Source: Candidatus Hydrogenedentes bacterium CG07_land_8_20_14_0_80_42_17 (GTDB taxonomy: Bacteria > UBA8481). From it: a stretch of DNA of 20,967 nt. How positions within the stretch are numbered: position 1 is the first letter of the stretch; every line of letters starts with the position of its first letter. The notes below the pieces were generated by a model. The model did not search any database, had not been told where the DNA came from, and saw only the letters and a list, made by a program, of their open reading frames with translations. This document shows, piece after piece, positions 3,102 through 5,266 of the stretch. The DNA is taken from contig PEWQ01000105.1 in the NCBI GenBank assembly GCA_002780065.1, forward strand, positions 6,597 through 27,563, given 5' to 3'. The position numbers were made by a program, and so were the translations under genes.

Positions 3102-3355
3102 CTAAAAGCGTTCCTTAAAATTTATATTTCTTTTAAAGTGAAATAAAAAAGTCGGCAATGAGTAAGATGAACCTTTTTTTACTTCAAAAACATACTTTTG
3201 AACTGAATCATAATTTCCTGCAATATTTCTAATCAATGTATCAGAAAAACCTTTTCTAGGATTAATTACCCACAATTCATTATGAGATATTAAATTTTCA
3301 ATAAATTCTGTGTCAGACTTATCTAAAGCAATACTGGATTTCTTATCATATCGCA
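3102..3355 (-). pseudogene. C-terminal stump of a gene, possibly a membrane glycosyltransferase
   Basis: The minus strand reads openly from about 3355 to a TAG at 3102-3104, giving about 84 residues with no start of its own. The translation includes DTEFIENLISHNELWVINPR, then VQKYVFEVKKGSSYSLPTF and a final FKRNINFKERF. A WVI strand with a late hydrophobic strand resembles the soluble tail of GT39-type membrane glycosyltransferases; this is a weak, pattern-level call. Its base composition matches the AT-rich host, and it stops exactly where the GC-rich block begins. It lies just upstream of neuB on the same strand, so the intact gene probably belonged to the same operon. The N-terminal part is not found on the far side of the block. 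Confidence 0.55.
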
Positions 3356-3472
3356 GATGTGGGTCGCGACATAGCGGAAGTTCGGCGCGCCGGCCTCGTC
3401 GCGCGGGATGCCGGCGCGGTCTCGGTCATCGCGGAAGTGGTAGGAGTTCTGGAATAACACCGAGGCAAGATC
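3323..3472 (-). pseudogene. GC-rich fragment of an unrecognised gene
   Basis: On the minus strand a 49-codon open stretch, bounded upstream by a TAG at 3473-3475, includes FQNSYHFRDDRDRAG, then PRDEAGAPNFRYVATHIC. It reads like real protein because of its aromatic and charged pattern, and the GC-rich third positions fit the foreign block. The sense breaks down where the DNA becomes AT-rich (about 3352), and the frame closes at 3323-3325 in a different frame from the overlapping stump. I do not recognise the family. A GTG at about 3460 could be a start, but I read it as an internal fragment left when the block joined the host DNA. Confidence 0.35.
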
Positions 3473-3481
3473 CTACTTATC

Positions 3482-3500
3482 ATTCACCCTTAGGGTGAAT
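3482..3500. promoter_or_regulatory. Perfect 19-bp palindrome, likely antitoxin operator
   Basis: attcaccct and agggtgaat are perfect 9-base inverted arms around one central t. The palindrome ends 8 bases before the TTGACA of the toxin–antitoxin promoter. A related half site (ttaagggtgag, 3538-3548) lies just past the -10. Xre-type antitoxins commonly bind such palindromes to repress their own operon, so HigA is the obvious candidate binder. That assignment is inference. Confidence 0.7.
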
Positions 3501-3508
3501 AAAAACTA

Positions 3509-3537
3509 TTGACAAACCAAGTCGCGGCAAGTAAGGT
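3509..3537 (+). promoter_or_regulatory. Sigma70-type promoter of the toxin–antitoxin operon
   Basis: Consensus -35 TTGACA (3509-3514), a 17-base spacer, then TAAGGT (3532-3537), a 4-of-6 match to the -10. It is bracketed by the 19-bp palindrome upstream and a half site downstream. The predicted transcript would start only about 15 bases before the TTG start of the toxin, so its leader is very short, with GGTGAGG as the ribosome site. Confidence 0.65.
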
Positions 3538-3557
3538 TTAAGGGTGAGGTACCCGAT

Positions 3558-3860
3558 TTGCACGTTGAATTTGCCAACAAGACGCTTCGCGAGTTCTACG
3601 AAGACTGGAAGAAAGTCCGTCGGAAGTGGGGTAATGTTGTCGCTCGAAAATACGTCGAGAGGATCAATATCATCAAGTCCGTTCGTGATTTCGAGGAACT
3701 TCAGCTACTTCCAGGCTTGGGCGTGCATAAGTTGATCGGCGATCGGAAGGGATCATGGGCAATGAAGTTGACCGGACAGCACAGATTGATCTTTTCGATT
3801 CAGCAGGAGCAGTTTGAGATCGTGCTGGTTGAGGAGGTGAGCAAACACTATGACGGCTAG
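3558..3860 (+). CDS. higB: HigB/RelE-family toxin
   Basis: 100 residues, typical of HigB-type RelE-fold toxins, which cleave mRNA at the ribosome. Recognisable features are the N-terminal LREFYEDWKKVRRKWG helix, VRDFEELQLLPGLGVHKLIGDRKGSWAM, a core strand GQHRLIFSI (the usual position of the basic catalytic residues), and the C-terminal VEEVSKHYDG. The start is TTG at 3558, preceded by GGTGAGG with 8 bases of spacing; no in-frame ATG fits upstream. The stop overlaps the antitoxin start by 11 bases. The toxin-first order is that of higBA rather than relBE. The gene is complete with no damage visible. A role in mRNA cleavage is family knowledge. Confidence 0.88.
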   Translation: MHVEFANKTLREFYEDWKKVRRKWGNVVARKYVERINIIKSVRDFEELQLLPGLGVHKLIGDRKGSWAMKLTGQHRLIFSIQQEQFEIVLVEEVSKHYDG

Positions 3861-4980
3861 AGTTCAGGTTCAATCGAACCTTCCTGTTCCTCCGGGAGAG
3901 TATCTCCATGAGGTTCTCGATGAGATGGGAATGAGCCAGGCGGAGCTGAGCCGCCGTATTGGTCGTCCAATTCAGATGATCAACGAGATCATCAAGGGAG
4001 AAAAAGCTATTACGCCTGAGACGGCGATTCAGCTCGCTCAGGTTCTCGTGGTTCCGGCTCATGTTTGGACGGGGCTTGAGATGGAATACGAGCTTACAAA
4101 AGCGAAAATCCAATATGAACAAGATCTAGCCAAGGAGGAATCTGCCGCTCAGCGCTTTCCGTTTCGAGAGCTTATCAAAGACGGTTGGGTAAAATCGGTT
4201 CGAAAGATGTCGGCTAAGGTCGAGGAGCTCCGAAGGTTCTATGGTGTGTCTTCACTGACTCGCCTGGAATATGTGGATCGACTTGAGCCCGCTTTTCGTA
4301 AGAGTTCCGCTTTTCAAAGCATCCCTGGGGCTCTCGCGGCGTGGATTCGCGCCGGGGAACTACGGGCCCGCACGCGTCAAACGCCCGCCTTTGATAAGAA
4401 TAAACTTCAGAGCGCCCTCTCCGATATTCGGCGCCTGTCTCGTTCCGAGCCGTCAGTGTTCGTTCCACGCATTCAGGACATTTTGTCGTCATGCGGGGTT
4501 GCCTTTGTCTTCCAGCGCCACTTCAAGGAGACGTATGTCCAAGGCGCCACCTTCTGGCTGACCTCAGACAAGGTAGCGGTTCTTCTCAGCAATCGAGGTA
4601 AGTGTGCTGACATCTTCTTCTTCAGCCTTTTCCATGAACTCGGCCATGTGCTCCTGCATGGAAAGCGTGACGTGTTTGTGCGCGAGGTCGACGGAGATAG
4701 CAATCCCTTGGAAAAAGAGGCCGATGCGTTTGCCCGGGATCAGTTAATTTCGAGGAACGCGCTAGCTCGCTTTCGTGCACAGTGTTCGGACAAGTATTTC
4801 AGCGCCGAAGCGATTGAGGACTTTGCTGTGGGTATCGGAGTATCCGCCGACATCATAATAGGCCGTCTTCAGCGAGAAGACTTGGTAGGGCCCGAGCATC
4901 TCGCTCGCCTACGGAAAAAGATCAGTGATGAACTTCTCGAGAAAGGAGGTGACGAAAATGGCCAATTACAACCGCAATAG
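3850..4980 (+). CDS. higA: HigA antitoxin fused to ImmA/IrrE-type metallopeptidase
   Basis: 376 residues, far longer than a minimal HigA of about 100. Residues about 12-85 are an Xre helix-turn-helix of the HigA antidote family (PPGEYLHEVLDEMGMSQAEL, then IGRPIQMINEIIKGEKAITPETA). A helical linker follows. The C-terminal half is an ImmA/IrrE (DUF955) peptidase with zinc motif HELGH at 262-266 and a downstream glutamate ligand in EKEADAFA (288-295). The zinc residues are intact, so it may be active. It overlaps higB by 11 bases and has a strong GAGGAGGTGAG ribosome site, so the two are translationally coupled. It probably binds HigB and represses the operon through the upstream palindrome. The peptidase could act on the antitoxin itself or on another regulator; that is inference. 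Confidence 0.88.
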   Translation: MTARVQVQSNLPVPPGEYLHEVLDEMGMSQAELSRRIGRPIQMINEIIKGEKAITPETAIQLAQVLVVPAHVWTGLEMEYELTKAKIQYEQDLAKEESAAQRFPFRELIKDGWVKSVRKMSAKVEELRRFYGVSSLTRLEYVDRLEPAFRKSSAFQSIPGALAAWIRAGELRARTRQTPAFDKNKLQSALSDIRRLSRSEPSVFVPRIQDILSSCGVAFVFQRHFKETYVQGATFWLTSDKVAVLLSNRGKCADIFFFSLFHELGHVLLHGKRDVFVREVDGDSNPLEKEADAFARDQLISRNALARFRAQCSDKYFSAEAIEDFAVGIGVSADIIIGRLQREDLVGPEHLARLRKKISDELLEKGGDENGQLQPQ

Positions 4981-5152
4981 CGGAAAGAACTGGGCGCCAT
5001 CTGACGAGACTCAGCTGGTTCGCTACGCGAGGCAGAACACGCCTACGCGCGTAATCGGACTGAAGCTCGGAAGAACAGAGGATGCCGTGAGATCTAAGGC
5101 TTCAGACCTCGGAATCTCACTTAAACCGACTAACCAAAGTCCTCGCGGATAG
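4958..5152 (+). CDS. Small SANT/Myb-like protein, third gene of the toxin–antitoxin operon
   Basis: 64 residues from the ATG at 4958, chosen because a near-perfect AAAGGAGGTGA lies just before it; an earlier in-frame ATG at 4925 lies deep inside higA. The sequence contains NWAPSDETQLVRYARQNTP, then TRVIGLKLGRTEDAVRSKA and a KPTNQSP tail. This matches a small conserved family I recall from proteobacteria and others, with a SANT/Myb-like helical pattern (tryptophan start, GRTEDAVRSKA recognition-like helix). It overlaps the end of higA by 23 bases, so it is translated with the operon. It may be a DNA-binding accessory regulator. The function is not established to my knowledge. Confidence 0.8.
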   Translation: MANYNRNSGKNWAPSDETQLVRYARQNTPTRVIGLKLGRTEDAVRSKASDLGISLKPTNQSPRG

Positions 5153-5166
5153 CGGTCTGGCACCCC

Positions 5167-5197
5167 GGGTGGGCACGGTTACATTCCGTGTCCACCC
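5167..5197 (+). terminator. GC-rich hairpin after the toxin–antitoxin operon
   Basis: gggtgggcacgg (5167-5178) pairs with ccgtgtccaccc (5186-5197) around a 7-base loop, 12 pairs with one G-T. It lies 14 bases beyond the stop of the third gene. No T-run follows on either strand, so it is not a classical Rho-independent terminator. It could still protect the 3' end of the operon transcript. Confidence 0.45.
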
Positions 5198-5266
5198 ACA
5201 ATGTATAGCGTGAGGTTGTCCCATTCAAGAGGTTCTTCGGGGCCGCCATGAGAAAATCTGATTTGT

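Follow-up and report, generated by a model that had tools for sequence, protein, structure and literature searches.

The three overlapping genes at positions 3558–5152 of the window (the whole 20,967-nucleotide stretch of DNA that was analysed) are best explained as an autoregulated two-gene toxin–antitoxin module, here called genes A and B, that carries a small third gene, C, probably incidental to its function. In this module toxin activity would be released by a protease fused to the antitoxin, probably in response to phage infection or DNA damage, and we put the probability of this reading at roughly 65%. The sequence comparisons show the gene families, the pairing of A with B and the conservation of the catalytic residues of B and of the candidate operator; C is not conserved. 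The features of the locus are as follows.

3345..5260, no strand: GC-rich insert that contains genes A to C and has host genes on either side; limits approximate
3482..3500, no strand: candidate operator, a 19-bp perfect palindrome, ATTCACCCTTAGGGTGAAT (palindrome scan and shuffles)
3542-3547: extra half-site, GGGTGA
3558..3860, plus strand: gene A, 100 aa from a TTG start, homologue of HigB-family (RelE-like) toxins
3850..4980, plus strand: gene B, HigA antitoxin fused to an M78/ImmA-IrrE peptidase, 376 aa, ATG start
Residues ~12-90 of B, plus strand: HigA part (TIGR02607)
Residues ~210-345 of B, plus strand: M78/ImmA-IrrE peptidase part (PF06114)
4958..5152, plus strand: gene C, Myb/SANT-like HTH protein, 64 aa, ATG start
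5167..5197, plus strand: strong RNA hairpin 3' of C, without a U tract (MFE -36.8 kcal/mol for 5140-5230, z -2.8)

The preliminary description of this DNA had reported three overlapping ORFs with strong ribosome sites for the second and third, and both points were re-found: A and B overlap by 11 bp, B and C by 23 bp, and Shine-Dalgarno-like sites precede B (AGGAGGTGA) and C (AAAGGAGGTGA), that of C being near-perfect and lying within the 3' end of B. No hairpin was found between B and C, and the one that follows C is a possible transcript end. The genes lie on an insert with a GC content of 0.49–0.54 (about 50–55% for 3345–5260 as a whole), against 0.36–0.44 in the adjoining background, and the insert has a NeuB-like gene on one side and a glycosyltransferase gene on the other. 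Because this high-GC segment lies between host genes, genes A to C look acquired, and a horizontally spread module is the best explanation of A and B. We note that the GC-rich stretch at 3345–3470, before the operon, could be a gene remnant (minus-strand reading VLFQNSYHFRDDRDRAGIPRDEAGAPNFRYVATH); six-frame translation of this left high-GC fragment gave no identification. The assembly consists of 207 contigs and the GC change is sharp on both sides of the insert, as would be expected if a foreign piece, either an inactive remnant or an artefact of assembly, had ended up in a fragmented genome bin. We regard this as extremely improbable, given three intact ORFs with ribosome sites, a catalytic motif and a perfect operator, and host genes that flank the insert on both sides on one contig.

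The product of gene A belongs to the HigB family, as had been claimed for it: its score is beyond the curated Pfam cut-off for HigB-like_toxin (PF05015, 2.8e-9; 37.8 versus 27 bits), and the profile of its family matches the structures of HigB and of the GraT "killer protein" (1e-9). At E ≤ 1 gene A matched nothing in PADLOC, which does include a PD-Lambda-2_A model.

Gene B exceeds the cut-offs of the NCBIfam HigA equivalog TIGR02607 (61.3 versus 47.7 bits), of Pfam HTH_3 and of Pfam Peptidase_M78 (PF06114, 28.2 versus 22 bits), and its HELGH motif is intact at residues 262–266, so the earlier assignment of a HigA–ImmA/IrrE fusion with an active-looking protease stands, motif position included. 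Both the HExxH motif and an acidic residue downstream of it, E288, are present, as in M78/ImmA-IrrE peptidases, and E288 is a candidate third zinc ligand. In the AF2 model of B (pLDDT 89) the N-terminal fold is that of HigA (VIA-align versus 3trb: Z 14.8, rmsd 4.3, 91 aligned; the aligned rows span the HigA part only). The C-terminal part of the model matches CapP of Thauera in Foldseek (7t5t, E 4e-4), and the sequence profile of B also matches CapP across the HExxH region. Residues 267–288 of B, in the H266–E288 stretch equivalent to the "cysteine switch" of CapP and VapB52, include no cysteine, and a cysteine anywhere in this stretch is found in 9 of 43 homologues, at no fixed place. Since B and most of its homologues have no switch cysteine, control of their peptidase must differ from the CapP/VapB52 model.

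Homologues of B are present in 43 of 386 diverse genomes (E ≤ 1e-15) and in 87 plasmid records (E ≤ 1e-5); the viral contigs searched with B gave no relatives. Residue conservation was judged on 43 full B proteins taken from genomes, plasmids and phages, which were collected by similarity to B, and the figures describe the B family only. In this set, at 28–45% identity, H262, E263 and H266 are present in every protein and E288 in 42. A small ORF occupies the HigB position upstream of B in 41 of the 43 loci; most of these ORFs overlap B, in many loci by exactly 8 or 11 bp. Some are too divergent to be named by alignment alone, and Arg76, the most conserved HigB residue, is found in 37 of the 41. 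By these sequence comparisons the conserved unit is the HigB–HigA/M78 pair and not a trio with C.

The pair also has a candidate palindromic operator of the HigBA type, at 3482–3500. Palindrome arms of at least 8 bp arose in 21 of 2000 shuffles. Of 40 homologous operons, 19 have a palindrome of the type TYACC-N5-GGTRA ahead of their toxin gene, where a mean of 0.32 would be expected from shuffled upstream regions (maximum 2, 200 trials) and 0.2 from the background rate; the pattern was picked after the first examples had been seen, and the exact ratio of excess is therefore optimistic. Chance is nonetheless an unlikely source of these sites, because their spacing is fixed and the excess is large, and they support a predicted autoregulation via the HigA domain.

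A mechanism can be proposed in which B, probably with A, would repress the operon through the TYACC-N5-GGTRA palindrome and would keep A inactive. Upon a signal, which probably comes from phage infection or DNA damage, the peptidase would become active and cut the antitoxin part of B, in cis or in trans, and so release toxin activity; the released toxin would arrest growth or bring about abortive infection in the manner of PD-λ-2 (below). C would be a small DNA-binding protein of prophage origin that at this locus happens to share the transcript of A and B, either as cargo or as a locally recruited accessory. We infer the steps of repression, inhibition, cleavage, trigger and defence. The pair could instead be a module for addiction or stabilisation that has no part in defence and whose peptidase would set only the turnover of B or derepression; the plasmid records and the GC-shifted insert are in keeping with this, and the operator implies ordinary autoregulation. 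An invariant HExxH, however, exceeds what an inhibitor needs, restriction–modification and defence genes are frequent neighbours of B homologues, and the relatives that have been tested (PD-λ-2 and RosmerTA) protect against phage, so that we consider such a module very unlikely.

No Pfam, NCBIfam or PADLOC entry matches gene C. The profile of its family (32 members) weakly matches a PDB SANT domain (DNAJC1, E 0.003), its AF2 model is a three-helix HTH (pLDDT 80), and the only Foldseek matches were weak HTH/Myb ones with E above 0.001. The name "SANT/Myb-like" that it had been given is reasonable on the weak profile match and the modelled fold. Members of the C family are found on 57 viral contigs, next to tail genes in Pseudomonas phages and plasmid-borne prophages, in rhizobial plasmids and in a few genomes, and they stand alone in prophage tail regions, where most of the compared loci lie. 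The preliminary description had taken toxin, antitoxin and SANT protein for one system, and had named a small gene found mostly without higBA as the outcome that would count against it. That neighbourhood comparison was run and did not bear the trio out: none of about 40 other B loci scanned has a C-like gene, and among 75 loci of the C family only the window's own has an adjoining HigB–HigA/M78 pair, about 70 others occurring without one. C is probably cargo rather than a core component, as judged from its distribution.

A true three-component system, in which triggering needs C as an accessory, either a DNA-binding sensor or a co-repressor, and the third slot is interchangeable, would fit the near-perfect ribosome site of C in the end of B, the 23-bp overlap and a hairpin placed after C with none between B and C. 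It would also fit the requirement for PD-λ-2C, a protein unrelated to C, in PD-λ-2 defence (PMC9519451), the tight coupling of other genes to B at other loci (L005, -4; L007, -1; L033, -4), the recurrence in two loci of a third gene of 161 aa (66% identical), and the position of a distant Polaromonas relative of C (39%) close to a CBASS operon and to an HTH-ImmA pair in divergent orientation. Against it, C and HigB–HigA/M78 occur together nowhere else among the B loci or the C loci compared, and C family members are solitary in prophage tail regions; we think it fairly unlikely. It is doubtful, and decidedly unlikely in our estimate, that HigB–HigA/M78 is a generic protease-gated core with a swapped third slot, for which a phage-derived C was recruited as trigger or DNA-sensing partner, giving a PD-λ-2-like variant with no cysteine switch.

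The genes that follow B at other loci are diverse, with restriction–modification genes and further defence genes common among its neighbours. The next gene is hsdS, for a type I specificity subunit, at L007 (Microscilla pSD15), the start of a type I methylase at L028, a type I restriction-like protein at L017, a type IIG enzyme at L020 and a type III methylase at both L032 and L033; it encodes Schlafen/AlbA-2 proteins at L005 and L021 and a PADLOC PDC-S54 protein at L056. Other loci have unrelated genes, or nothing evident, after B. The Schlafen/AlbA-2 proteins occur with HATPase_c_4, tightly coupled 3' of HigA/M78, in two unrelated hosts (L005 3080-4468; L021 2563-3948). The 161-aa protein lies directly after HigA/M78 in an Achromobacter phage and a Paraburkholderia plasmid (L053 4108-4593; L126 3596-4081); it has no Pfam match and is possibly a recurring third component. 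On the Polaromonas plasmid (L050 1150-4621) the relative of C is the first gene of an operon that runs on to a CBASS cyclase, divergent from a separate HTH plus ImmA/IrrE pair. In three distant hosts HigB–HigA/M78 is followed by a convergent cassette with ADDT/aGPT-Pplase3 (PF18746, PF18724) and thymidylate synthase:

L051 2371-5377: convergent cassette, E. coli
L010 1959-4932: convergent cassette, Pantoea
L054 2459-6035: convergent cassette, Leptospira plasmid

This arrangement suggests thymine-hypermodification genes that may be guarded by HigB–HigA/M78.

The two-gene reading extends the range of protease-fused antitoxins, a class already published, to a poorly sampled bacterial lineage (only one other genome of the phylum was among those searched), with an invariant catalytic motif and an operator common to very different bacteria, and it does away with the notion that toxin, antitoxin and SANT protein form a conserved trio. 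The common TYACC-N5-GGTRA operator and the missing cysteine switch are additions to prior work.

The preliminary description knew of no role for such a gene set, but loci of this kind were predicted in 2009 and relatives have since been studied. The locus shares with classical HigBA type II systems the toxin-first order, the HigB and HigA folds and a palindromic candidate operator; classical HigA is without a peptidase, whereas B has one. Exactly the HigB–HigA/M78 gene pair appears in the account by Makarova et al. (2009, PMC2701414) of COG2856-Xre fusions in RelE-toxin operons, which predicts a likely three-component toxin–antitoxin system, names Microscilla pSD15 (our L007) and already proposes, as computational prediction only, that the protease cleaves the repressor; that account of the fusions discusses neither an operator nor a SANT gene. 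In VapBC52 of M. tuberculosis the antitoxin VapB52 likewise bears an HExxH IrrE-type peptidase, and addition of ssDNA triggers its self-cleavage, which is proposed to free the toxin (2026, PMC13273310); it differs from the window locus in its PIN toxin, in having no HigA domain and in its cysteine switch loop, which B lacks. ssDNA also activates cleavage of DdrO by PprI and of CapH by CapP (PMC10904395). By analogy with these proteins, toxin release by antitoxin self-cleavage is plausible here.

RosmerTA (RmrT/RmrA), from a defence family with ImmA-type antitoxins, pairs an HTH-ImmA protease antitoxin with a toxin, as the window locus is predicted to do, and acts against phage. The toxin partners differ, A has no PADLOC match, and B is closer to PADLOC PD-Lambda-2_B (PDLC03982, E 2.8e-35, residues 22–343) than to the RmrA models, to which its matches are partial (best 1.8e-11). 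PD-λ-2 was shown experimentally to have anti-phage activity (Vassallo et al. 2022, PMC9519451), and in it a HigB-like A is followed by a HigA-HTH–peptidase fusion and then by a third gene. The window locus has a similar order, its A being of the HigB family by Pfam and unmatched by the PADLOC A model. The third protein of PD-λ-2 is of a 374-position family (PDLC03983) related to a P4 phage antitoxin, whereas C has 64 aa, and its defence is by abortive infection; a search of the source genome with the PDLC03983 model gave no match, and neither did the control set. This comparison rests on PADLOC models; the E. coli relatives found carry the thymine-modification cassette, not PD-λ-2C, and were rejected as a PD-λ-2 reference locus. 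Set beside PD-λ-2, the window locus shows a match for B, a resemblance for A and no match for C, and we do not file it as a member. The PD-λ-2 fusion B was toxic by itself, A rescued it, and PD-λ-2C was required for defence (PMC9519451), so that the usual toxin and antitoxin assignment is not to be taken for granted here and the roles of A and B may be reversed. With this proviso, the window locus is, by analogy, predicted to work like PD-λ-2.
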